From the NCBI GenBank assembly GCA_030248295.1, contig JASANH010000787.1, positions 495,900-559,899 of the forward strand: DNA of 64,000 bases, read 5' to 3'. The DNA is from Mesodorylaimus sp. YZB2_4 (Eukaryota; Nematoda; Enoplea; Dorylaimida; Dorylaimidae). Positions 9,411 to 64,000 of the stretch are shown here, piece after piece. The position numbers and the translations under genes were made by a program. The notes beneath the pieces are model-generated. The model saw only the letters and a program-made list of their open reading frames with translations. It did not search any database and was not told the origin of the DNA. How positions within the stretch are numbered: position 1 is the first letter of the stretch; the number at the start of each line of letters is the position of its first letter.

Positions 9411-11968
9411 CTACACAAAATTTACATATTTCAATTGCTCTTTCAATTTTTCAGGCAAGGGTAATCGATCGATCAGGGGCCAAATCGATTTTCCCTGTTC
9501 ACCCAATCTGTGCCGAATTATTTGACTGCTCAGACGCAATAAACACGGGGGATTATGTAATTCGTTTCGTATCCATTCGATCAAGCCCTCATTTTGACGT
9601 AATCCAACTGGCATATGTCGATTATTGGTCATGTTATCACGATCTTTCCGATTTATATGAGCGCCGGCGTAAATCAATAATTTGAACACATCCATTTGAT
9701 TGTTTGCCAATACCCAATAAATGGCTCCTCGGCCATCGCGATCTGTCGGGTCTAGTTTACAACCATGCCTGATCAATAGTTTCGCAATTTCTGATCGTCC
9801 AAAATATTTGGTGGCCAAATATAGCGGGCATTGATTTCGACGATCACCAGCATTCAAATTGGCGCCATTTTGGACCAATAGGTCGACCAATTCCAGGCTT
9901 CGTTCTCGTGTAGCAATCCACAACGGACTCCGCATTTGAGAGTCGGCTGCATTCGGATCTGCGCCATATTTGAGAAGGATGTGAGCCAAATCGTAATTAG
10001 CCTGTCGGCAAGAAGTGACCAGCGGGGTCTCGAACTGGCCGTTGGCATCTCGCGATAGCTTATTGATGTTGGCGCCGTGCTCCAACAGCACGGCAGCTAT
10101 GGACGCGTCGCCTTGACGTACAGCCAGACTGAGGGCGGTGATTGATCTCAGACTGCTGTCAGTATTGATTGGTGAGTAGGCGCAGAGGAGACGCACCTGT
10201 AAGGAATGAGGACACTTGGAACATGGCATGTGAAAGAGCACAGAGGAGACTAGCTCATCAGCGCAAGCCTCATGCTATGTAGTCATCTGCAGGGTGTTTC
10301 ACATGCTGCATTTATCACTGCCACTCTCGCATTTCTGTCATTTTCTACCCATTATTTTTCGGCCCACAGCGCTCAAAGTTGAATCGCAATATCCTTATAG
10401 ATGTATCATCCATCCGACTCCACGGGTACTTTAGAGAGGTCAGTCTCGATTTCCAACTTTTCTTGTTAGGGTGTCTTCTATATACATGATTTATAAGCTC
10501 CTGATATTGACCCATGTCATATCAAGATCCAAATTGCTCGATCACCTTCACCAACAGGTTAGGAACAAATCGCTTTCCACTCAGCCTTCATTTGGGTTAT
10601 TCAAGGCCGTTTAACATGTGCCTAGATTCTGCTTGGTCATGGTCGACGTATGCCTTCTTATTACTGCACCACATAGCACCAAGCTTACAGTATATTTTGA
10701 GTAAGCATATTCAGCATGTCTATCTGTTTTCTATTGGAATGTACTGGCGGCACCATGCGGCAGGCGGAGGACGTGTACCTATATTCTCAAAAACACAGGT
10801 TATAGTATGTGCTGATCACAAAGACCAAATGTACGTCATGATTACAAGCACCCACACCCTGCATGTTTCTTATCAGCACAAGCCCGTAACACAAAATCAG
10901 CAGGGTTTGTCCCATCTGGATACATTTGTTAACACCTGCTTATCAGTCCTGTCTGCAGCGGTAATGATGCTCATTTTGAGAATGTCTAATGGCGTAAATC
11001 CTTAATTGTTACTTTGGGGCTTAGAGGACTCAAAGGGTCAATAAGGCAGAAAAGTACAAGTGAAGAGGACTCATTCAAATTTCGGAGGTCTGAACTAAAT
11101 GTTTCTGCACCGAAATACCTATTATCAGGTCAGCTCTCCGCAGTCAGAGCCTAATTAGGGTCGAGTCGTGTCCTAGCGGGTGAGGGCAATTGCCTCTCAC
11201 GATGGGTGCACACTTACAGGGGAGGGTTCGACTCCCTCCCGGGTGAGAAATGATTGTCGAATACATGTGTTCTTTTTTTTGGAGAGTGTTCCTTAGCCCT
11301 CGAGTGCGCCTTGTGGTGCTTGGCTAAGGATAAAGTATGATATGACAGTGGAAAGTAGGCCGTTAATCGTCACTGCTGGTTATTGTCACAGTTAGTATGA
11401 TAAGAAAAACATAAATTGTGAGAAAATCAGTTGGTGCTCCAAATTTATCTTTTGAGTTACAGTAGAGACCCATATTTCAAGGGAGGATTTTTGGTGCACT
11501 ATTCACTATACGACGATATGCCCGCATAGGCACCCCTAATCGTCATAGTGCGGGTATAATTCGATGCGATGAGTCAAATAAGCGTGCGATGCGACTCTGA
11601 GAGATATCATAGTCGATATGTCTCAAAGAGTCACATCGCATCAAAGTTACTTTAGGCCCAGTACGTACATCAGTGCCATGTCAAATTTGTCACACTGCTA
11701 CGAGCCAAGCAATTAGAGCGGTGTAATCAAATTATAATTGCGGAATTTAATTTTAAATTCAAAAAACCAGTAAATTAAGATGCAAATAACTTTTGCACGC
11801 TCTCATTCTCTCCGCAACAGATTTCCGATTGATCGAACTTACCTTTCTCAGATCCCTCAATAAAATGGCTTGATGCAGATCTTCTAATGATGGCATGATG
11901 CGGCTAATAGCCAGACACCATTCGCCCCGATCTTCCAGTTCATCCTCCACTTCTCGCAATAGAACCAT
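9411..11968 (-). CDS. Ankyrin-repeat and SOCS-box (ASB-like) protein
   Basis: Two exons: 11968-11843 (ATG start MVLLREVEDELED, 42 residues) and 10196-9411 (261 residues, TAG), joined in phase 0 across a 1.6-kb intron, giving 303 residues. An upstream GTG in frame is not taken as start because the first ATG is 11968. The junction reads AILLRDLRK|VRLLCAYSP, continuous ankyrin-type sequence. Repeats include TALSLAVRQGDASIAAVLLE, ETPLVTSCRQANYDLAHILL, RSPLWIATRERSLELVDLL, QCPLYLATKYFGRSEIAKLL and GAIYWVLANNQMDVFKLL. The C-terminus (PPCLLRLSSQIIRHRLG then IDRLPLPEKLKEQL) fits a SOCS box, which recruits Elongin B/C and Cullin-5. Inference: substrate-recognition subunit of a CRL5 ubiquitin ligase. 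The substrate is unknown. Confidence 0.87.
11165..11250 (+). repeat. tRNA-derived SINE-like sequence
   Basis: Contains a perfect TpsiC-arm form: stem GAGGG (11222-11226), loop TTCGACT, stem CCCTC (11234-11238), with B box GGTTCGACTCC. Upstream is an A-box-like tgtcctagcggg and a hairpin GTGAGGGC-AATT-GCCTCTCAC. The acceptor arms do not pair, so it is a SINE or decayed tRNA rather than a functional tRNA gene. Lies in the ankyrin/SOCS intron. Confidence 0.5.
11586..11644. repeat. Imperfect palindrome in the ankyrin/SOCS intron
   Basis: gatgcgactctgagagatatc is followed by an approximate inverted copy ending in agtcacatcgcatc. A small fold-back sequence with no coding capacity. Confidence 0.45.
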
Positions 11969-28088: not shown

Positions 28089-29549
28089 ATGGTGCAAACT
28101 GGTGGCATCGTCGACGACACAGCATCGGCCAATTCATCAGCCGCTAAGCTGCCCTCAATCGATCCTCAATCAAAGGCGATCGATGATAATTTCACTAACC
28201 TTGTCAAAATTCATCGACAAGACATTGGATTATTGCCGATCGAAGGAGCTGCAATGAATGATTGCGCCTTGGATGCCACACCATCACCACATCCTACACC
28301 CGCCTATTATCAATTGAACGATGCCGATCGCCGCCTGATCAGCGAATTACGTAATCGATTACGTGATCATTTGCCAAAATCATACGATACCGATTTCAAT
28401 TTATATCGATGGCTGAAATCGGCCGATCGTACGTCTCGCCAAGAAGGCAATGTTGAATTGGCGGAAAAATTATTACATAATCATTTAAAATTTCGAAAAG
28501 CATTAAAATTAGATGAAATAGAAATACCAAATTGGGAAACTAATCCAATGTTTTCTCGTCGATATTTACCTCGTGGTCACTTATATTATATGCCATCGAA
28601 TAATCGATTTTTATGGTGGGTCGATTATTCAACGATCGACGTAGCTGGAATTATGAATTCGGTCACCAGCACTGACATGCTGATATGGCATTTTTGGAAA
28701 TACGAAATCATGTTGCGCATGGTGAACGAAGTGGAAGAACGTACCCGGGCCTTGTCCGGGGTGCACATGGTCATGGATGTGCGCGATTATGATATGAACC
28801 CATTTTCTCTCATGCTCACAACCAATGGCGGCATGACCTACTACGCACAACTAATCCATTACGAACATTACCCAGAACTGACTTGTCCAGTCAATGTGAT
28901 CAATGTGGCCAAATGGTTGATGCTACCTTATCGATTAATTCGTACAGTTATGCCTAAAGATTTCAATGAACGAATTCGTGTCAGCGATTCAAATTTTTTG
29001 AATACATTATTGCAAGATATTGCTGAAAATGAATTACCGAGGTCGTTGGGTGGCAAAAACGATGACATCAAAGAGACAGTAAAAGCGGAAAAGTTAGACC
29101 CTAGTGGCTACTATGAACGTCGTCAACACGAAGAAGAGCCAGCAAGTGATCAAATATCACAGATTCAAGTGGCTGCTAGAAAACGCAAAATGATAGCAGT
29201 CGATTGTAAAAGTGGGTCAAAATTGAAATGGTGGTTTCGCACGGATGCAGATGTTTATTTTGGTATTTTCTTTTTGCCAGAAGATAAAACGAAAGAAAAT
29301 GTCAAAAAGCTATCCAAGAAAAAAGATATTTTAGATACAATGGAAATGGTGCATCCATTTTTTCGTCTGTTAACTAAAATTATACCCGAACGTGGTGAAC
29401 ATATTTGCCAACAATCAGGCACATATTATTTAGTATTTTGTAATCGTGGATCATGGGTATATCGACGGAATATTCAAGTGAAAATCGATATTGATGATCA
29501 TACATATGAACGGAAAAGAGTGTTAGAACGTTCCTTGAGCATCCATTAG
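28089..29549 (+). CDS. CRAL-TRIO plus GOLD domain lipid-transfer protein (SEC14-like)
   Basis: A single open frame of 486 residues from ATG to TAG with no intron. Residues 1-75 are a poorly conserved acidic/Ser-rich extension. CRAL-TRIO N-terminal helices run about 78-150 (DADRRLISELRNRL, TDFNLYRWLKSADR, AEKLLHNHLKFRKAL). The lipid-binding fold is about 160-325 (HMVMDVRDYDMNPF, YYAQLIHYEHYPELTCPVNV, RSLGG). The GOLD-like beta domain is about 370-475 (KLKWWFRTDADVYFGIFF, GTYYLVFCNRGSWVYRRN). This architecture is that of vertebrate SEC14L and C. elegans CTG proteins: cytosolic binding and transfer of phospholipids or tocopherol-like ligands, with the GOLD part mediating Golgi or protein contacts. 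All other host genes here have introns, so a retrocopy is possible, but there is no poly(A) tail or frame damage. Confidence 0.92.
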   Translation: MVQTGGIVDDTASANSSAAKLPSIDPQSKAIDDNFTNLVKIHRQDIGLLPIEGAAMNDCALDATPSPHPTPAYYQLNDADRRLISELRNRLRDHLPKSYDTDFNLYRWLKSADRTSRQEGNVELAEKLLHNHLKFRKALKLDEIEIPNWETNPMFSRRYLPRGHLYYMPSNNRFLWWVDYSTIDVAGIMNSVTSTDMLIWHFWKYEIMLRMVNEVEERTRALSGVHMVMDVRDYDMNPFSLMLTTNGGMTYYAQLIHYEHYPELTCPVNVINVAKWLMLPYRLIRTVMPKDFNERIRVSDSNFLNTLLQDIAENELPRSLGGKNDDIKETVKAEKLDPSGYYERRQHEEEPASDQISQIQVAARKRKMIAVDCKSGSKLKWWFRTDADVYFGIFFLPEDKTKENVKKLSKKKDILDTMEMVHPFFRLLTKIIPERGEHICQQSGTYYLVFCNRGSWVYRRNIQVKIDIDDHTYERKRVLERSLSIH

Positions 29550-33644: not shown

Positions 33645-35490
33645 TTCTACCGCAAAAATCCTGCACTTTAGCCGCAAGCTTGGTAGGAACAGCACGGTTT
33701 GCTCTTATACCTCTAGAAAACAGTTGTGTTAAGGGGGCTTAGTTTCGAGCATCTTGACTTTCGGAAGAATCAGTTCGTCTGCGCAATACACTGTATTGGG
33801 TCTGAAGGTCCGAAGGAGAAGGAGACCATTCAGTATTAGCTCAGGCCAGGCAGAAGTGCCGATATCGGAAGACTGTGTTTCTATTGCACTGTTCAGCTCC
33901 TGGGCTTACGCTTCAAACTTTCTACACCCCGCCCTACACTCTATCCAAGTGCGCCATGCATTTTACAAATTGAACTCATTGAAATATGGATCATATATAC
34001 GCCATATTGCATACAGTAAGTTCGAATTACGATTTTGTGATTGTAATAAAAACATGATTTTCTGTAATTGTATACAGTAAGAAAAGGCTTCTGGAGTTAT
34101 ACTCAACTGCTTATTTTAGCCTGCATTATTGTTCGAGATTAATATTGTTCTCAGGCAACTGAACAATATATATTCTTGCATCGCTCACACCCTCGTCGTT
34201 TTCTGTAGGTAATGAAACCTAATAAGAGAGCAAGCGCAGACCGTGGCTAAAATGACTCCGCACACCAACAGTAGAATTTCATTCCTACTGTGGAAGGTAG
34301 TGTAAGGAGAATGAAGATCATGTTATGTAAATGAGTGTGACCCCGTCTGATGTTAGGCCTGTTTGGTGAAATTTAGTGATTGCTGTGTGTGGAACTGGTC
34401 TCCCTCAAAATCAGTGTTCATGCCTGCGTGAGTTCGGTGCGGTCGAGTAGTAAGCCTCTTCCTATAAGACACGAGGTCCTATAGTAGATCTCGAAAAAGA
34501 TCTAGAATGAAAACTGAACTTGGAGGTGTTCACCATGATCAGGAATTGAAAAAGAGCAGTCTCATAAGGCACACGTTGACGAAAGCCAGTGGGTGCTCTT
34601 TGGAGCGGGCTGGCACCGCTGGATGCACTGTGATGCTACAGTATAATACTTCTAAACCATTATAGAAGAGGTGATTTAGAAGTAGCATAGCAGATTTGCG
34701 GGTATTTTTGTCCTGTCTCTTGTTAGCATTTGAGGATAGGTCTTCCAGTTCCAGGCAAACATGCATCATGGCTTGTGGAGAATGAGGTGGGCAGAAGTAG
34801 AAGGGGTGATAATATAATAAAATGTGAATAAAGCTATGATGCTTTTGGTTTTTGTTGAACTTACATTTTGCTTTGTGTCTAATAAACGTATGATACGTGA
34901 AAAAAACAGTATACTGTATCTTGACTTTTTGAGCTGCACACAAATGCAGAGAAATAGATTTCACGATACCCTAGGATGATTCTCTGAAAAAAATGATGTC
35001 GGTAAAGTCGCTTATAAAATTGGCTTGGTTTTTGAGAAGAGGTTTCATAAAGTCCTAATACTGTAAAACGATAGTACAGAACTATTCGTAGTATTTTCTT
35101 TGCACGGTATCCTCAATACTTTTTTGTAATAAAACTGTTCTGCCAGGGTTTTAATTCTATAAGTCAGCCAGTAGACAAAGCTCTGACAAAACTGCAAAAG
35201 AAATCTCGCCTGAACGAAGTGCGGCCCGTCAGCTGTTGCAAAAATTCTTCTCGAAGAGAATGAGTAAGCTACAGCGTTCTTGGTGCATCCTCACTCGAAG
35301 CCAGCATGTTTTAGAAAACCCTGCAGCTGAAAGTTGTGCCGCATTTAAGCTACTCGTAGACTCGAGGTTCGAGTGGTCTTCGCATTCAACGCGTCGCAGC
35401 TAATTCACCAGTTCGTATAAATTTTAAACATTTTCTAGTATCTAGTCCTGTTACTGCATTTTTCTTGGCTTATTCTAATTTTATTTATGA
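33645..35490. other. Gene-poor stretch before the F-box gene
   Basis: Frames on both strands (for example minus 34964-34539) show no domain or codon pattern I trust. Confidence 0.35.
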
Positions 35491-35491
35491 A

Positions 35492-36142
35492 ATGTTGGAA
35501 GAATTGCCTGATGTTGTACTGATCCATATTTTTCACCGACTCCCTTATGGAGATCGATTTCAGACAGAATTAGTTTGCCATCGATTCCACGACTTAATGA
35601 AAGAAGTGTGGAATAAAAAGCGTGCTATTATTTATCCATACGATGTTAAAACCATTAATCCGAAATATCCAGTTTCGTCATATTTGGATAATTTCGAAGA
35701 CGAAATGCGAAATTTAATTATTCATTGTCCTAATTTTAACGAGTTACGCTTTAAAGATTTTCGTCTCTTACAAATTATTATGCAAGCCAGTTGTATGACC
35801 TATTTCGAACAATATTTGGTCAATTTTCAAGTCAAAGTACGGGAAATATTTATTGATAGCCGTTACGTAACTGATGTTGACACAATCCGAGAAATGGGGC
35901 GTGTTTTCCCAAATTTGGAGGTGCTCACTATCACCACGCCTTATCCCTTAGTGCACAGGAAAAAGCCGGATACAGTGGACATGCTGCGCTCCAGAATTAC
36001 AAATCTTGAACCCCAAATTTGGACCTTGATGGACGACAATCAACGAGTTACTGAAGACATCAGATTCCTTCTAGAACTGTTTGAAAGAATTAAAGTTTTG
36101 AGACTAAAAGATGCAGTTTTTAATGTAATTGCAAGTTCATAA
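35492..36142 (+). CDS. F-box protein
   Basis: ATG at 35492 opens 216 codons to TAA. Residues 1-40 form an F-box: LEELPDVVLIHIFHRLPYG, ELVCHRFHDLMKEVW. The remainder (NLIIHCPNFNELRF, FPNLEVLTITTPYP, LFERIKVLRLKDAVF) has the periodicity of leucine-rich repeats. Family role: binds SKP1 through the F-box and presents substrates to an SCF ubiquitin ligase. The open frame extends upstream of the ATG without a stop for at least nine codons, so a spliced 5' exon is possible. An acceptor-like cccatttcag at 36145-36154 hints at a further 3' exon, but the implied intron would be only about 30 bp. Confidence 0.75.
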   Translation: MLEELPDVVLIHIFHRLPYGDRFQTELVCHRFHDLMKEVWNKKRAIIYPYDVKTINPKYPVSSYLDNFEDEMRNLIIHCPNFNELRFKDFRLLQIIMQASCMTYFEQYLVNFQVKVREIFIDSRYVTDVDTIREMGRVFPNLEVLTITTPYPLVHRKKPDTVDMLRSRITNLEPQIWTLMDDNQRVTEDIRFLLELFERIKVLRLKDAVFNVIASS

Positions 36143-46300: not shown

Positions 46301-47889
46301 GGCAATTTTGTTATCGCACGCTGCGCGGCCAGCAAAATTGGTTTCTGCCCTCTCTGTTAATCGCTTCAGCTTGAAGCTAGACTCGCTATCAAGACGAACA
46401 TGGCGAGGGTCTATAGCAAACTATCTACTCGGGCTTTCCTACAGTCTGTCGAGTTAGACAGCGGACGCGCAGCAATGGCAGATAGGCCTTCGATGTGTTT
46501 CCTCAAACGGCGCCTAGTTACAAGATCGGTCTATTACGGGGATGTGCAGCTTGGTCAGTGGCTTCATTCTCATGTGGCAATGGGATATACTGTAGGTACC
46601 CGGTTTGTGTCGGATCTGTTAGCAGGACGGGTTTTTATGAGAGGTGAAATTCGGAAATAGCCCCGCGAGATTGTAAATCGTGGTACCTGTTTTCTCGATT
46701 TGGTTTGAAATTTTTTTTAGCATTGGATTTATAAAAATCGGTCGCTATGATGTTTTGGGCTGATCAGCCTACATTTATCGAATTTAATCCCATTTTTTTT
46801 ATCTGCCCTTCGCACGCGAAATTCCTCTGTTAGAGGAAATTCGAGTCTGTCAGCTTGCTGTTTCTTTCCGATCGTCAAAGCTCTATCGCCCATGGCTCTC
46901 GTCGTTGGTTCTTTATCCTCGTTGTTCCCTTAGACACTGATTTTGTCGGAACTGTAATAACTTATTGATAAGGCAGTATCTAGTGTGTAGTGCATTCCTA
47001 TTCTTGTCCAATTGGCCCGCCAGTGCACCATGGGCCAGGGCATATGGAACCTACTCGACTATAGTTCTTGGCAAGGACACTGTTCTTGGCAAAAGTGATC
47101 AGTGCGTTAGTGCAATGGATGGCTCAGAGCCAACTTTATCCGATCTGACCTCTGGAAAGCACGAGAAGAGAAAAAGTAATGGCGAGTCTGTCGAGGACAA
47201 AGGAAAGCTTACTTTAGAAACCTGGCCAGGCTAGGGTCGATAAAGTAGTCCCGGTGACATTTTGATGATTGGTTAGTTGAGAGCGGGCCTGAACACTGCT
47301 TCTACCTGCTTCGCCCACTCACCTAGGGGCCCGAGAATTCGAAGCAAACACGTGAAGGCGCATAACGAATGTCGTCACCGTTGCTATGTACGAGGACAAG
47401 GAGTGTCTTCTTTTATAATAATTAGCTTATAGCCTCGAGCTTGGTCGGGCATAAGCAACCTGCTCCCCGGCACAGGGCACAGAGACGGGGGGGAAAGGAG
47501 GTATGGAGCAGGTATGCGTACAGTCGAGGCCTTATTCAGTAGGCAGCTAACGAGTCTCCCATGGCAACGGGCTACACGGGTTTGTCGAGTTTGCCCGTCG
47601 AGTATGCTGCGCAATAATTACTGTTCTTGTTTAACTTTCCTCCCTCCGCTTACCCGTCTATGCCTTAGCTCTATCCAAGCTACCTAGCGCCGGTCTCATA
47701 GGGTTCTTTATTCGACAAACAGCTCACCTGCCCCTCATTGCTCGCACAGATCCCTTTCAGTAAACGGGATCATACACTTCCTTTCTTCGAAGTGTCTAGT
47801 TAACCCATCGTGTAAAAACTACTTGCAAATTCTATACAGCATTTTATTTCGAATTTTATGTCAGGATAATCTCGATTTGATAAGAAAAA
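43354..47889. other. Intergenic region between the FAM20 and nuclear receptor genes
   Basis: No supported gene. Contents: a cagtcaactccgta terminus-like word at 43601, several tacagtag octamers (about 44109, 44406, 46589), a perfect 16-bp inverted repeat at 46049/46108, and an isolated ATG frame at 46400-46660 (86 codons, MARVYSKLSTRAFLQ...) with no recognisable family. The receptor promoter should lie just above 47890. Confidence 0.4.
46049..46123. repeat. Perfect 16-bp inverted repeat
   Basis: TTTAAATATTCCCGCC (46049-46064) and GGCGGGAATATTTAAA (46108-46123), 43-base loop. Probably the ends or core of a small MITE. Confidence 0.75.
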
Positions 47890-50800
47890 ATGTCGGAACC
47901 AACATTGCTCAAATCGCAACATTCGTGGGAAGAGCAACAAGAGCAGAAAAAGAATATGGATGAAAATGAATACCAAGACCAACACGATTTCGAAAGATCC
48001 TTATCCCGCGGTGGCGATGATCGAAAAATGAAGATCTGTCGAGTGTGCGGCGATCGAGCCCTGAGCGTCAATTTCAACGTGGTCACGTGCGAATCATGTA
48101 AGGCGTTTTTTCGACGCAACGCCCTCAAACCTAAGGTAACTAGTTTGCCTCGATTCTTTCCACTTGTTCCCTCCAATACTCTCACACCGGGGGCAAACCG
48201 AGTGCGCGCGCAAGCCTGCTCGGTGCCGGCAAATGAACCAATGGTGGCGCACGATCAATGGCTTCATGACAGGACCCACATCCCAAACTCAGATTCTGGG
48301 TCCAGCATAGGTTGAGTGAGGGATTACGAGCCGCAGTGCGGATAGGATCAGGCCTAATCCTAAATTTGATTCTCACAAAACTAATAAGCGCCTAGGAAAC
48401 GCACGCGCCGCACTTTACTGCAAAGTGAAAAATGCGCGCGGTAGAGAGGTATAGGAGCTGAAGGGGAGCAGGGAATCGCTCGCTCGACAGCGGGGAAAGG
48501 TGGCCGTTCGAGTGTTTTTGCGCTTCCTCGTTCAAAGTTTCCAAAGTTTTCTTGGCAGTTATCACAGTATTGTAGACAGCAATAACCAGGTTTTTGTCTA
48601 TGAGTTATGTATTCTACCTCGAAGTTAATATATCTCAGGGTTAATTTTGGCTCGAGCAGCTCCTTAAAAGGAACTACCACAGGAATCAAAAAATATTTTT
48701 AAGTCATAACAGAAAATTCTCACCTACAATAGGACATAGACTGTCAGGTATGAACCCTATCGCGGATCGATTGCTAAGATGTAAGATAACAAATTAGGCT
48801 TTGTCTAGGGGCGTCTGGTATCTTGCTTGGACTTTCCTGCAAAAAAGATTTTAACAAACTAATGAAAAGCTTTCAAACAGGACAAACATGTTTTGGCGCC
48901 CACGGTTGGATAACAGTGTTGAACGAGGACAGGAGGGCAGAGTAGAATTTTCCTACCCTTTGTCAGGTCTACATCAATCGTGTTAAAGGGGGACAGGGGT
49001 TAAAGGCTTTGGTTCAGACCTGTAAGGTCGATTATGTGATAAGCAAGACTGCTTTGGATGATAAGATATCAGCGACCGTTATGGGAGATCACACATCAGA
49101 TCATTGATAAGACACAAAGTTGCTGCAATCTGTCTGACTGGTTCACTGTCAACACAAGTGGCCTCGATACAGGCTGGTCACAAGCATGTATCATGTTGGG
49201 GTCTTCGCACCAGCTTAACTGCCGAAGCTATATTCTCACTTCGCTCCACTCTTTCGCAATTATAAGCAATCATACTGTAGTCGAGCAAAATGGCAGCTGA
49301 GTGGCCACATGTAGGAGATACTAATATGATCAGCTTGCCATAGAGTCCGCTGAACGGTTCCGTTAGAACGGTCAGCGTTAGAACGATTCCGATAAGTCTT
49401 ACCCGTTAATTTATCACGTGAGTCTTAAAACTTGACCAGATTATGTGATAAGCTATACTACCCACATAGGCAAGGCATTCTAATGCAAATCCGAGGCCAG
49501 GTTTACTGTAGGGGCATTTCACGGTGTCTAAAAGGCGAGAAGCCATAGAGATGTACCAGTTTCCTATCTTATTCCTACTAGAGCTAGAGCTCATCAGATC
49601 TTCTTTCATTTCATCTGATGAATGTTTCGGAAGTGCAATCTTCGTCTTTTTGAACCCAATGGGAGATTCCCACGCATAGCATCCTATTAAGATATCAAGT
49701 TCATATTCTCGAGGAATATGCAGCTGATATCACAGCTAAATTCTATTCTTTCTAAAAGAAAAGCCCCTTCACGCACATGGAGAGAACGGCTCTGCAGGAA
49801 CTGCAATATGCAACTAACGCTGGCTGTCGGCGTTTGCGTAGTTTCAAGGCGGGGGTCAGTTATCGGTTACGTGACATCCTTCCAAAACGATTTCTGTTGT
49901 CCCGTGGCATTTAGATCGGTCATCATACCCCATACAGTACATTGACATAGAAAAAACCAGGGTCGCTATCCCACTAAATGTCATCCTGTGCCTGCCTGAT
50001 TAGACATGCCGATTTAGGCCTGTATAACTTGCTATAAATAGTAACGTACTTCTGTATTTTTATGATGGGGAAAACCAAAGTTCGAAAGTCTCCTGGTCAG
50101 TGGTAACCTCTGTGAGTCCCCCTCAATGAGATATTTTGTTCATTTTTCGTGGGCGCGGGTCAAGGTCCGCTGCGTAGGCCTAGCCTAGGCAAGTTTAGGT
50201 TCCTTTCAGGAAGGTGTTTAGGCGGATGTTTAGGTTGAGGATGCCTCGATAGGTATGATCGAAACAGTGTTTTTGAGAAACCCTAGCCAAATATGGTTTG
50301 TGTTAGCTTCTAGCTTTTCAATGCGGAACTTAATCATGCTCGTAGATGGCAAATGCATTCAGTTTGGATGGAGGCGCAAATTGTTTTTTCTCGTAGCTCT
50401 TTGAGTTGATGCTTGAGGCATGCGACACAAAGTCTTTGAACAATCACTAGCCCTTCAGTGGGCGGGGGGGGGGGGGGGCGAAAGACAAAAGGAAAACGAA
50501 TAGAGTCTCTGAGGTTAGAAACCCTATGAAACTAGAAATAAAAGAGTCCTGACAGAATGCTTATTTTGATTCCATCGCATCATTTGAGAAACTAGCCTTT
50601 TAAAAGCCTGATCATAAGATCTTCACACTGACTTTGGAAGCCACTCTAAATGAGCAGCCGTTACGAAGCCTAGAAGAAGCTGCAAAACCTATTTAGTGAC
50701 TTGTTTCGTTTTTCAGTTTTTCTCGCCTGCTTTTGATTTTTCCAAGTAGTACTACTGTCGTTTGCATCCACTCAGTGTTTTCCATGTTTGTCACCTTCCC

Positions 50801-56887: not shown

Positions 56888-57279
56888 TGAAATCCTTGGC
56901 TCGCCCTAGGACCAACTAGGGCTGACCAGCGGATGGCCCAAGTCAGGAACAGTACCACGCAGTCCACGGACACCTTGTAATATAGTTTATTGGTCACCAC
57001 ACCACAAGGGCCGTGTAGACTCACAATTCGGGGAGCAGCCGCACGTGTCGGCCGTCAAAGGGGTTCTGACGGGCCTGAGCCCGAAGTGCTCACAGAGCAG
57101 TTCAGATCAGGTGATCCAGACTAGTTCTCAACCGATGCCTGCAATCAGACCAGCCACTCGACCTCAACCTCGCTCTCGGTCTCGTGCTGGCCCTGACATA
57201 GGAGAGGTGGACCGGTTCCCTGAACCAGTGCACACATAGGCCGGAGGACATAACACATGCCTAGTCCATGCCTATTACA
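56888..57279 (-). repeat. 3' LTR of the Ty3/gypsy element
   Basis: The right border is set by TG at 57279-57278 (minus strand TGTAATAGG...) immediately after the polypurine tract; the left border by the point where similarity to the copy at 3524-3873 begins (tgaaatcc / tggaatcc). Length 392 bp. The target-site duplication cannot be tested because the other flank is outside the window. Confidence 0.8.
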
Positions 57280-57293
57280 TTCCTCCCCTCCTT
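57280..57293 (-). other. Polypurine tract (plus-strand primer site)
   Basis: Minus strand AAGGAGGGGAGGAA directly abuts the TG of the 3' LTR, as expected for second-strand priming. Confidence 0.85.
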
Positions 57294-58237: not shown

Positions 58238-61200
58238 TTAGGCCGGCGACAGCTGCTGCACACGGGCAATCCACATAGCCCTCGCAACCAGAAAACGGTG
58301 ACTGCAAAGGCTACTCACCCACTCGTCGAACGAAGCAAACAGCTGACGTGACGGCCAATCCATAATTGTCCACGGCTGGTCCATGGGGACGCCGGTGATG
58401 TCAAAAGCCAGTCGGAATGCCGTGGGATAATGCGGTAAATAGAAGAAGGGTTTGCGAATCACCCATCGCTTGATCCCACCATCACCATGGATCACGACCG
58501 CTGCCGGACAGTCGAACAACAGCTCGTAGACGTACTGCGACAAATCTTGACCGTTGACGAGACCATCTTGACGTAGACCTCCTGAGCAACGTGTTCAACC
58601 ACGAAGATGCTCAGGCGCGGGAAGTTCAAATTCCGAAAATCACATATCGCAGTCCAGATGCACACAAGGCGCATAGGGGCAGCGATACACTGAAGTGAAT
58701 CGGACCGGGGCTGTACCTTCGTCAAGATTGGCCTCTGGCAAAGTGCCAGCCAATCGCATATCTTCGATTGCACAAACCGCTTGGTGAATTGCTTCCTTCA
58801 AACGACCCACCTTACCCTTGTGCTTCTGGGGAATGAAATTCTTTAATTTCAGCTTGGCCTGGAAGAACTGCTGATGCGTGGCAAAATCGCGTATCGCTGT
58901 TTCCCGCAGAACCGCATACTTCCCGTCATCGTTCAGGAACTGCACCCGATATACCTGTTCCAGGTTGACCTTGGACACGGAAGACGCATGTGCCTTCTTG
59001 ATCGGTGCATCGTCGAGGTCACCAGGGCACGAATCCGGGCCCAGGCCTGTAATACGACCTGGCCACCACGGAAAACCCATGACCTTTGCCCAAACGTACT
59101 GACCAACGTGGAAAGATTGCGTAGCAGGCGGGACATTCGTCGTCGAACTCGTATTCGAGGTAGGCTTGTCCTGTAATGGAATAGGCTGATCAGCATTATC
59201 TGCACTACCCTCCACCTGCTCTGAAAGACCCATGTCCTTCGTCGGTATGCGCTCTGCGTCAGCAGACACATCTTCCACTGCCGCAGCTCGTTCCAGGCGT
59301 TCCGTCGTCTTGACTAAATGCTGTGGGTGCCATCGTTCAATCGGCTTCGACGGATCCTGCAAATTGCGGATCAACACGCCCGACTCACCCAACAGCTTCA
59401 CCACTTCGTATGGACCTAACCAGTGAAAACTCAATTTCCTAGAAAGGCCAGGTTTGAAGTGGTAATTCGGCTTACGAACCCAATCTCCAACTTTCAACGA
59501 CAGAGGACGTGCCGTTTTGTCATATTGTAACTTCTGACGAAACTGATTGAGTTCGATGTTCTGTCGCACCTTCGCATCGATACTTGCCATGCGGATCCGC
59601 AAGTGATCCACATACTCAGTGCCTTGTACCGATTCGGTACGAGGTTGAGCGAGCAAAGTATCCAATGCCGTGGGCGGGTCCCTTCCATGCGACATGAGAT
59701 ACGGGGAAAGACCCGTCGTCGTGTGCGGTGTATGCCGATAATGCATCATTATCAGCTGCAATCAGTTATCCCAATCATTTTGATTAGGATGCACGTAGCA
59801 TGCCATGGAGAACCCGATTAACTTGTTCAAATTTTCGACATTACCATTGCATTGCGGGTGATAGGGTGTTGTCGAAACTTTCTTCACTCCCAGTTCCTTG
59901 CAAAGTCGTAAAACGAGCTTTGACAAGAAATTAGAGCCCCGATCGCTAAGGAGCACCCGAGGACATCCGTGTCGAGTGATCCACCCATCGACGAGCAGGC
60001 GAGCAATGCGTGCTGCCTTTTGATCGGGCACCGCATATGCCTCAGCCCACTTGGTGAATATGCACATAATCACAACCACGAACCTGTTACCATGATCCGA
60101 GGTTGGAAATGGACCTTGTACGTCGATGGCAATCGTGTCGAAGGGCGCTGTGCGTTTAATGATCTCCAACGGCGGTCGTTCGTATCGATGAGGTGCCTTG
60201 AAACGCGCACACGTATTGCACTCGGCACACCAGGCCCTGAGATCGCGTCGCATCGTGGACCAGAAATACTTGATCCTCAGCGCAGAGAACAGTCGATCGA
60301 AACCAGGGTGGTTCGCATCCTTATGGGCAGCATCGAAAATGAATCGACGCAGCTCCGACGGGACCACCACTCTGTCGTGAAGATACGTTCCTTCGACCAA
60401 CCTGCTCTCGTGATGCCATCTGTGCATAAGAATGCCCTCGTCGTCCAGCAGTTAGCTCTTCGCCAAATTCGCGATTCTGGGAGGTTGATTGTAATCACCC
60501 TGCAAAAATGCAATGATACGTCCCATTTCATCATCATCCCGTTGCATCTTCTTAAGAAGGTGCCGGGATGGTGCATCAGGAAATGCATCGGCTGCTATTT
60601 TAGCCATGTCGATCCCCAACTCGTCCGATTCCAATTGCGTTGCTGGATCCAATTCGTCCCGCAACTCCAAATCGCATTCAGAGTCGGAGTCGTCAGAGAG
60701 ATTGACATCTGGTTGCACTTCCAATTCCAAAGTGGCATCTGTGTCCGGAGACCCTACTGTAGTCCAGACAGATGCTCCAACCACATGTTTCGCTTCTGCG
60801 ATCGCGACGGCACATTCATTGAACATGCCCTCATATCCATCTTCATTACACTCCTCAGAGATTGAGTCTAAGGGACCAGACGATGCCAGAGCAACAAAGT
60901 GGTCTAGCCAATTGACTGGGAGAGGCACTGGTAGGACCTCACGCACTGGAGCCAACGGGATATCGTCGATAACTGCTCTTGGAGCCTCCACCACAGACTC
61001 ATCCTCGCTTCCCGTATCCGTTGCTGCCGTGACGCAGATCATGGGTACACCGGGCTCTGTGACAGGAGTTTGCTCACCGTCACCATCAGTCGCTTCGCCA
61101 CCGTCGGAGATACCAGAATCCGACTCGATCGTGACTGCTTGCGGCAATAAGGCGATCAATGCGGAAGGGCCACACGTCGAACACCGTTTGGTGGGTGACA

Positions 61201-64000
61201 ATGCCGAGAACAGCATAGCATCGGCTGCTGGCATGCGCGATAGAAAATCGGCGGCGCCATTGTCACATCCTTTCGCGTGTGTAATGCTGAAAGTATAATC
61301 TTGCAATTGCATAAGCCACTTACCGCGACGTCCTTCCAAGTCCTTCTCCTTGTACCAGTACAAGAGAGGCTTGTGATCCGTGTACACTTCGAAGGACCGT
61401 CCGTATAAATAATGTCGATATTGTTTGATCGCCCAATGAATAGCAAGGCACTCCCGATCGATCGTCGGGTACCTCTGCTCGGCTGGTGACAGAGTTCGTG
61501 AGATGAACCCAATGGCCCATGCGTGTTTCGGCTTCTTCGGATCATACTGCTCCAGGACAGCACCTATAGCAAAACTACTTGCGTCAGTGCTGAGTCTGAA
61601 AGGCAGTGAGAAGTCAACATATCGCATGACTGGATACGTTACCAGTGCTTCTCGCAGATCTTCGAATTCTTTTTGATGTGTATCCGTCCATTCCCATCGC
61701 ACGTTCTTCTTCAAGAGTTCTCGCAGAGCCTTGGTTCTACGAGCAAACCCCTCGACGAACGATCGATAGTAACTGGCCAACCCCATAAATTTGTGGAGTT
61801 GGTCTGTGTTCGTCGGAATTGGGAAATTTCGGATTTTGTCCCGCTTATCATCTGTGATCGAAACACCCTCGGCACTAATGCAATGGCCCAAGTACTCGAC
61901 TCGGTCCATGCCAATAGCGCACTTGGATGGTTCAAGCATCAGTTGTGCCTCTCGCAATCGTCCAAATACTGTGTTCAGATGCTCGACATGTTCGTCCAGT
62001 GTCTTGCTGAACACGATGATATCGTCCAGATAGCATAGGGTGTAAATCCACAGCAATCCGGACAATGTCATCTCCATGCACCTTTGGAACTCCGCAGGTG
62101 CGTTGCAGAGTCCAAATGGCATGTTGACGTACTCCCAGAAGCCGAAGGGGCAAACGAATGCCGTTTTTTCAGCCGTCTCTGGGTCCAAGGGTATCTGACT
62201 ATACCCCGACGTCATGTCGAACACTGAAAAATACTTCGACCCACGCAGTGCATCCAACATTTCATGAATGTTGGGCAGTGTGTGGGCGTCCTTCTTCGTT
62301 ACCTTATTGATGGCACGGATGTCGACGCACATCCTCCAATCGCCCGTTTTCTTGCGCACCAATACGATCGGCGATGCCCATGGAGAACGTGAGGGTCGAA
62401 TCCACCCCAGGCGCAATAACTTCGCGACTTCCTCCTGGATGATTGGCTTCTGACTTTCGGCTAGTCGTCGGGGACGGGCCATGATTGGTTTTGCGTCCCC
62501 GGTATCGATATGATGTTTTGCCAAATGTGTGCCACCAATTTCTTCCTTTTTCAGGGCGAAGACGTCCGAATTACATGCGACCACCGCACGGACACGCTGT
62601 TCGTCTCGCTCTGAAAGGTTGCCATTTCCGAATTTGAGCTTACCCAGTAGTTCTTTCTGACGTTTCGGATCATGCCGCTCGATCGGAACTCGGTGTAGGC
62701 GATTGGGGTTCGGCTGCCCATCTTTCTTCCACGCCGTGTGCAGCCACAGTTCTTCATGCCTCACGAATTCGACCTCAGGCCTGATTGGCGTGTATGAACC
62801 AGGCGCCAACTCCGCGGGTTGATCCGAAATAACCGCCTCAATCCTCCAAAACGGAGGCGCTTTCTTGTCAAACGGAAATGGACTTGGTACTTCCCATTGT
62901 AGACCAGATTTCCCTGGATCCGTCCTCCGATTGTAACGGAATGTTACTCGGAACGGTTCCAACTCAGAGAGAAATCCCACATTCATATTTCTCGGCAGAA
63001 TCTGAGCCGCTTCTGCCAGATTCACTAAAGGGACCAGAAATTGTCCGGTCCTTTTATCAGGTCGTACCACAGTCCTGGGCATCATGACTTGTGGTTCCAT
63101 AGGCACCGGGTCGAAGAGCACATCGCGTCCCCGATATCGACGAGGTGCGACGGCTGTGGTGATCACATGCCGACGAGCTCCAACCTGAGTGGCGTTAGCC
63201 ATTCGAGCGGATGCTCGGAATAAATCTTGAGGCGTACGATGCACTGGTACATCGACACCGGCCAACGCACCAGCCGTGTACCGAACTCGTTCTTGGTTGG
63301 TATCGTATTGCCATCGATGCAGACCCGTGTTGAAATCTTCTCCCAGTAGCACGGAATATTTTCCATACTCTGAAACGTAGAATGGGACATTAGGTGCAAT
63401 TTTACCACCGATTTTGATATCCAAACGAGCAATGCCAATAATTGGCATTGGTTTACCATCCCCGTCAACACAATGATCGATGTCTGGGGGCTCCAGTTTG
63501 GACCGATCGTATCGTTTTCGTTCTATCGCTTTCATTGTTTCCTCTGAAATCAGGGTAATGCTTGCACAACTGTCCACATACGCACGAGTCTTATGACGAC
63601 CAATTGAGACATCAATCTGCGGGAGAGACAGACGTCCCGTTACCATCGTTCGCCCATCGCTCGCCATGCATACACCATACGGCCCGTAGCCTGCCTCTGC
63701 AAAAGATAGTTTTACAGTGGGTACGTTCTGGGGGGAAGGGAATAAATAGTGGATAGGCGGCACACTCAGTGGTGTACCGCCTTCCTCACGTTTTTTTGAA
63801 TCGGCTTTTCGTTCGACTTGTTCTTCCTCCTTCTCCTCCACTGGCTGTGACTTCTTCCAATGGTACGGACTTTCATCTCGTATTCTGGCGCTACACTGCA
63901 TCAAGGAGTGTGACCTATCCCCACACTGACCACATGGGGAGGAGCAGTCTCGGGCATAATGACCACTACCCTTGCAGTTAAAGCAAACTACCTTACCGCT
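58238..64000 (-). pseudogene. pol: gag-pol polyprotein with integrase-linked PWWP domain, four nonsense codons
   Basis: One reading frame from the window edge to TAA at 58238, interrupted by TAA 60454-60452, TGA 59764-59762, TGA 58642-58640 and TGA 58597-58595. Two CCHC knuckles (63985-63944 and 63934-63893). Aspartic protease near 63574 with VDSCAS in place of the usual D-S/T-G-A. Reverse transcriptase about 62480-61950 (ASPIVLVRKKTGDWRMCVDI, FSVFDMTSGYSQIPL, CYLDDIIVFS). RNase H about 61600-61250 (STDASSFAIGAVLEQ, YTDHKPLLYW). Integrase HHCC then catalytic D, D-35-E (AIDVQGPF, LLSDRGSNF, GNVENL) about 60380-59820. GPY/F module (HWLGPYEVVKLLGESGVL) about 59430. PWWP (GQYVWAKVMGFPWWPGRI) about 59110-58870. 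Gag and pol appear to share one frame, since the knuckles are in phase with the protease. Confidence 0.9.

Follow-up and report, generated by a model that had tools for sequence, protein, structure and literature searches.

The element and its PWWP domain

The DNA considered here is a stretch of 64,000 nucleotides from the dorylaimid nematode Mesodorylaimus sp. YZB2_4 (assembly GCA_030248295.1, contig JASANH010000787.1, positions 495,900 to 559,899 of the forward strand), hereafter called the window. It contains a copy of a Ty3/gypsy (Metaviridae) long terminal repeat (LTR) retrotransposon in which a PWWP domain follows the integrase. An initial annotation, made from the letters alone, had proposed that this chromatin reader continues the integrase frame and steers insertion to transcribed genes. 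All features of the element are on the minus strand and are listed below in window positions.

60452..63904, minus strand: first part of pol, terminating at an in-frame stop
about 63332-63616, minus strand: aspartic-protease-like domain (Pfam gag-asp_proteas, 9.6e-06, slightly below the curated cut-off)
about 61883-62359, minus strand: reverse transcriptase (RT; Pfam RVT_1, 1.6e-34)
about 61295-61690, minus strand: RNase H (Pfam RT_RNaseH, 3.2e-35)
59762..60427, minus strand: first part of the integrase, terminating at an in-frame stop
60194-60364, minus strand: H2C2 zinc-binding domain (Pfam Integrase_H2C2, 1.8e-16)
59855-60148, minus strand: rve core (Pfam rve, 8.6e-12)
58640..59761, minus strand: third part of pol, an open reading frame (ORF) with integrase end, linker, PWWP domain and tail
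about 59312-59500, minus strand: GPY/F-like module with the motif LGPYEV (motif and borders set by eye)
about 59117-59311, minus strand: Ser/Thr-rich linker (borders set by eye)
58778-59104, minus strand: PWWP domain (PF00855), amino acids (aa) 220-328 of ORF 58640-59761
57280..57293, minus strand: purine-rich tract adjoining the 3' LTR, recognised from its sequence
56888..57279, minus strand: 3' LTR, 392 bp, TGTAATAGG...GGATTTCA, its 3' border fixed to within one or two bases

The order protease, RT, RNase H and integrase with H2C2 and rve domains is that of Ty3/gypsy elements, with a protease match that falls slightly below the cut-off, and a D,D(35)E triad was recognised by eye in the rve core. 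The TG...CA ends of the LTR and the purine tract also conform to this assignment. The LTR borders were taken as the points where other genomic copies cease to match; many genomic matches start only past the purine tract, as expected of 5' or solo LTRs. Matches spaced by 11.36 kb at three sites (C42, C73, C339) indicate LTR pairs, and the 5' LTR of the window copy lies outside the window. If the contigs are numbered by size, the window's contig (C57, with bounds of 559,844 and 572,697 on its length set by the adjacent contigs) extends no more than about 12.8 kb past the window.

The proposed PWWP domain behind a Ty3/gypsy integrase was borne out by PF00855, which matches the tail ORF with 44.1 bits (E=3e-11) for a gathering cut-off of 25.6. 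As a single sequence, ORF 58640-59761 found its best PDB matches in DNMT3B, NSD2, Ty3 Gag-Pol, PWWP2B and NSD3, while a profile made from 11 element PWWPs recovered NSD2 (6.5e-16) and MSH6 (1.4e-15), then NSD3, DNMT3B, HDGF and LEDGF. In the integrase-PWWP alignment, Pfam matched H2C2, rve and PWWP in all five of the subfamily A, A2, B and C members (the subfamilies are described below). PWWP is the sole Pfam match in the tail ORF (E up to 1), with no chromodomain, and the element is thus not a chromovirus by this hallmark. Nor does it have the layout of LEDGF/HDGF, host proteins in which a PWWP goes with an integrase-binding domain, since here the domain is in pol and the tail ORF contains no further domain.

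The frame itself was found to be broken in the window copy. In-frame stops at 60452-60454 and 59762-59764 split pol into three ORFs of the same frame, the second stop falling after the rve core and ahead of the GPY/F-like module. The uninterrupted integrase-PWWP frame of the initial annotation consequently holds for the family, in which open copies exist, and fails for the copy in the window.

Genomic spread of integrase-PWWP copies

The window's own genome (145 Mb in 1067 contigs) was searched with PF00855, with 150 of 173 candidates scored, and at least 146 PWWP matches were found, 35 of the 146 being within open frames 1000-2265 aa long. A same-strand integrase was present within 2.5 kb upstream of at least 96 of the 146, a count that leaves aside 40 PWWP matches neither integrase-matched nor fetched. 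From the search listings alone, 86 of the 146 are within 2.5 kb behind an integrase match, and in 85 of these 86 the distance takes discrete values between 501 and 765 bp (2343 bp in the other one), so that the adjacency is far above chance. In the same way, 39 of the best-scoring 40 PWWP loci showed a same-strand integrase within 2.5 kb upstream, and in the lone exception, L022, the contig ends 25 bp ahead of the domain.

The converse search was performed with the 221-aa integrase piece of the window and gave 150 parsed matches (150 scored of 770 candidates). A PWWP match within 2.5 kb downstream on the same strand was observed for 33 of 51 integrase matches at 64% identity or more, 50 of 60 at 40-45% and 3 of 39 at 33-39%. 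Two open frames, C236 (1681 aa) and C514 (1743 aa), score equal to the window piece and each has a PWWP match behind the integrase, which establishes that the unbroken frame is real for the family. Three integrase matches without a listed PWWP were also inspected. In L051 the contig ends ahead of the PWWP place, L050 has a diverged PWWP barely over the cut-off (26.1 bits), and in L052, whose open frame terminates in HPYNLRPRTRQS, no PWWP was seen by eye.

Subfamilies and phylogeny

The copies fall into at least three diverged subfamilies.

Subfamily A: PWWP motif PGSLVWAK..PWWPARVLPESE, with A2 as a variant
Subfamily B, that of the window copy: PWWP motif GQYVWAKV.GFPWWP
Subfamily C and relatives: PWWP motif VGDAVWAKMKYHPYLPARIVDE

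In the alignment, the PWWP domain of B differs from those of A and C by an insert that comes after the PWWP motif and before the VxF strand; it resembles, only in position, the insertion motif that promotes the binding of Ioc4 to nucleosomes (PMC8934638). Ten more PWWP matches were fetched, one of them already among the 96, and were assigned by eye: L054, L055, L057 and L061 are C-like and L060 is A2-like. Two extra repeated PWWP types were also seen, L053/L056/L062 and L058/L059, the latter with the core PWWP motif altered to QPAP.

Representatives of A, B and C are about 37-47% identical in the integrase, which does not exceed their identity to the nearest database proteins, for which a precomputed Pfam column shows no PWWP. 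The trees were built with such database proteins, mostly unnamed, and without named reference elements. In RT-RNaseH trees A and B form one clade with support of 98/98 (tree without the C row) and 100/99, and for this reason A and B probably inherited a single PWWP capture. The single C row comes from a neighbouring opposite-strand copy in L025 that is 97.6% identical to L039; the RT-RNaseH tree gives it no supported placement, with 2 changes in the best tree and a p value of 0.389 in the approximately unbiased (AU) test for one clade. In the integrase tree A, B and C are not joined, 3 changes are needed and the starred branches force at least 2, and a single PWWP clade stays compatible with the data (AU p 0.304). 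Subfamily C may thus share the capture of A and B or have a separate one.

The B-type copies L037 and L038 display an extra ORF past pol (L038:3-1517, minus strand, at least 505 aa, beginning MSQERPPPATSPMDDTPG), at the place expected for an env or accessory gene. It has no Pfam match and no PDB match, and tblastn against the window turned up no credible trace of it (best E 3.8).

Constraint on the domain

Ratios of nonsynonymous to synonymous substitution (dN/dS) were calculated with the Nei-Gojobori method (NG86) over a stretch that runs from 8 to 12 codons ahead of the PWWP domain through the tail to the frame end. Four of six A/C pairs yielded a ratio: 0.16 (L012-L014), 0.10 (L014-L030), 0.15 (L012-L020) and, from only 4 and 4 changes, 0.29 (L039-L045). 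The other two gave none, dS being saturated in L012-L030 and the PWWP being without difference in L014-L017. Between the window and four B copies, dN is 0.46-0.49 and dS 1.5-3.3, hence a ratio of about 0.15-0.32 with dS near saturation; the values of a fifth B copy, L035, repeat those of L037. The PWWP is therefore under constraint, with dN/dS well below 1. For the integrase core, dS is saturated in most pairs. IN1 dN values of 1.26 (L033) and 0.49 (L042) were set aside as presumed frame slips, being in conflict with a protein identity of 84-85%.

The methyl-lysine cage

In PSIP1 the cage that receives the methylated lysine is made of M15, Y18, W21 and F44. The M15A and Y18A mutations make the domain much less specific for methylated nucleosomes; with W21A and F44A binding is abolished, possibly through disturbed folding (PMC3663649). 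Besides histones, PWWP domains also bind DNA (PMC8934638, PMC3663649).

Positions 15, 18 and 21 in PSIP1 numbering were tallied over 53 element sequences, and position 44 was taken from separate alignments. All nine of the B sequences examined have V15, F18, W21 and F44, so that the window's subfamily keeps F, W and F at three of the four cage positions (18, 21 and 44). In A and A2, M or L at 15 and W21 are accompanied by V, I or L at 18, meaning that one aromatic is lost to an aliphatic residue. Sequences with H18, which are those of C and relatives, have lost W21 in 9 of 12, and their commonest form is M15-H18-L21 (7 of 53 sequences). L058 and L059 have A at position 21. As judged from these residues, an almost canonical cage appears to be a trait of B, and the H3K36 methylation (H3K36me) model of the initial annotation would fit B best.

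Comparison with known elements

The lentiviral integrase works with a host PWWP protein, LEDGF/p75 (PSIP1; PMC2706977). This system also connects a PWWP with an integrase and has been proposed to tether it to nucleosomes; there the PWWP belongs to a distinct protein of the host, whereas here it is encoded by pol. Chromoviruses share the Ty3/gypsy pol order and a Royal-superfamily reader at the integrase C-terminus, and the integrase-chromodomain fusion is their hallmark (PMC3605345); they have a chromodomain where this element has a PWWP. A 2025 study of Ectocarpus described further chromodomain gypsy elements together with a C-terminal Tudor domain in a polyprotein, the first such transposable element to its authors' knowledge. 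In Gypsy-10_Ec32 with its integrase-Tudor arrangement, as in those chromodomain gypsies of stramenopiles that are not chromoviruses, a Royal-family reader has likewise been captured independently and follows the integrase. These elements occur in brown algae and relatives and have Tudor domains or chromodomains, no PWWP being mentioned in the accessible part of that article (PMC12477816).

The PWWP domain of the element is the same as in NSD2/NSD3, MSH6, DNMT3 and HDGF/LEDGF, which give the best profile matches but are host proteins without an integrase. The histone mark expected for a chromodomain differs from that expected for a PWWP. An integrase with a C-terminal reader is already known, with a chromodomain and recently with a Tudor domain, and the PWWP version appears to be new: in line with what had been claimed at first, no integrase-PWWP element is described in the titles and abstract starts listed from a library of 5.39 million open-access papers.

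In sequence collections, a five-sequence integrase-PWWP profile was run against 5.8 billion proteins. According to a precomputed Pfam column counted by eye, PF00855 is present in none of the 120 matches listed of 165, and PF00385 in 6 of them. At E 0.001, none of 199 candidate proteins matched the PWWP region taken from a B copy with an open frame. For the tail ORF of the window, 2900 candidate proteins yielded a single plant integrase, and a simple PWWP motif pattern had no match in the 121 proteins. Of two viral-contig scans, one was without a pattern match and the four matches of the other were unconfirmed by tblastn. Such searches reach mainly relatives that share short words, and the contig scans may leave out records of this genome or its near kin, which makes the absence a weak one.

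Possible functions of the integrase PWWP

The fusion is real, is present in several subfamilies of this genome and is under constraint. The explanation that we favour, at a probability of about 0.52, is that a Ty3/gypsy lineage has adopted a host-type PWWP at the C-terminus of the integrase, at the place of the chromodomain in chromoviruses, where it tethers the integration complex and, in B, reads a methylated lysine. The PWWP would belong to the integration complex and bring it to nucleosomes, and the B tether would read most likely H3K36me, like the PWWPs of NSD2, DNMT3B and LEDGF, one polypeptide uniting what lentiviruses divide between integrase and LEDGF. The contact would be altered in A and C, probably toward DNA or nucleosome binding with weak or different reading of histone marks. 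From sequence, tethering appears as the most likely function and H3K36me-guided insertion by B as plausible. A more far-reaching version is tentative and falls short of even odds: the LEDGF principle would have been internalised, the B integrase-PWWP directing insertion via H3K36 methylation and the sisters with a remodelled or lost cage forming a natural retargeting series inside a single genome.

Several observations weigh against the tethering explanation. Outside B, the sequences examined lack part of the cage, so that the usual mark reading cannot be a lineage-wide function. AlphaFold2 applied to the window PWWP by itself gave an unusable model, with a mean predicted local distance difference test (pLDDT) score of 34. 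In a broad rve table with 150 matches from 526 candidates, 41 have a PWWP behind them, and the PWWP elements are therefore only part of the rve-bearing elements of this genome. The domain is under constraint, yet evolves faster than the integrase core, with a dN of about 0.47 from the PWWP to the end and about 0.08 in the core (window versus L037, L038 and L035). Finally, 14 of 51 B-type integrase matches lie in contigs of at least 200 kb, which make up about 70% of the genome; the corresponding counts are 37 of 60 for matches at 40-45% identity, 17 of 39 at 33-39% and 75 of 146 for all PWWP matches. This concentration of B in short contigs is unlike an enrichment in gene bodies, an argument of little weight since the contig sizes were interpolated and near-identical repeats break assemblies, which confounds the comparison.

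The PWWP could instead be a general nucleosome or DNA anchor that serves efficiency or chromatin retention without choosing H3K36-methylated gene bodies. The DNA binding of PWWPs (PMC8934638, PMC3663649) is in agreement with such a role, as are the near-identical multi-copy C elements (L039, L041, L043, L045, L047, L048) with L at the cage tryptophan and H at 18, the V, I or L at 18 of family A and the B matches without enrichment in long contigs. Nevertheless, F, W and F at 18, 21 and 44 in nine of nine B sequences exceed what a pure DNA anchor should require, and we regard this role as unlikely. Another step could be served, such as the folding or multimerisation of integrase, retention in the nucleus or a counteraction of host silencing, given that the domain is constrained while targeting is inferred from sequence; extra domains of gypsy elements can act elsewhere, for instance the N6-methyladenosine (m6A) demethylase domain of orchid elements (PMC9289625). 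This is an improbable explanation, for other gypsy lineages have their chromodomain and Tudor readers at this same location immediately after GPY/F (PMC12477816). As to a chance capture of a host exon in one dead and functionless copy, which the initial annotation had named as a refuting outcome, it could call on the two in-frame stops of the window copy and is refuted for practical purposes: sister copies carry the domain, at least 96 of 146 PWWP matches are behind an integrase and 35 of 146 in open frames no shorter than 1000 aa, several diverged subfamilies are concerned and dN/dS is well below 1.

If the tethering explanation is correct, an integrase with its own PWWP would be a case of convergence with lentiviruses and LEDGF. 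It would also offer a single-polypeptide system for studying how integration sites are determined by a reader domain. The kept and altered cages of the subfamilies would make the role of mark reading testable within one genome.

Further observations and neighbouring genes

Four of 70 chromodomain matches of the genome (C268, C682, C851 and C1059), all weak, are located about 520 bp behind rve and point to a second reader-bearing integrase family. At L012, an open frame about 1.4 kb past the PWWP resembles by eye part of an ionotropic glutamate receptor, and is possibly a host gene adjoining a family A insertion.

Other genes were recognised in the window, and their families suggest an animal host. 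An exact pattern for the nematode SL1 leader had no match, a result that lends no support to a nematode origin but is compatible with nematodes lacking precisely this leader. The two nuclear receptor exons belong to a receptor that may be DAF-12/HR96-like.

47884-48315, plus strand: nuclear receptor exon (Pfam zf-C4)
about 51439, plus strand: nuclear receptor exon with the second zinc finger (motif)
28089-29549, plus strand: CRAL_TRIO protein (Pfam, long open frame)
35360-36142, plus strand: F-box protein (Pfam, long open frame)
9411-10274, minus strand: ankyrin-repeat protein (Pfam, long open frame)
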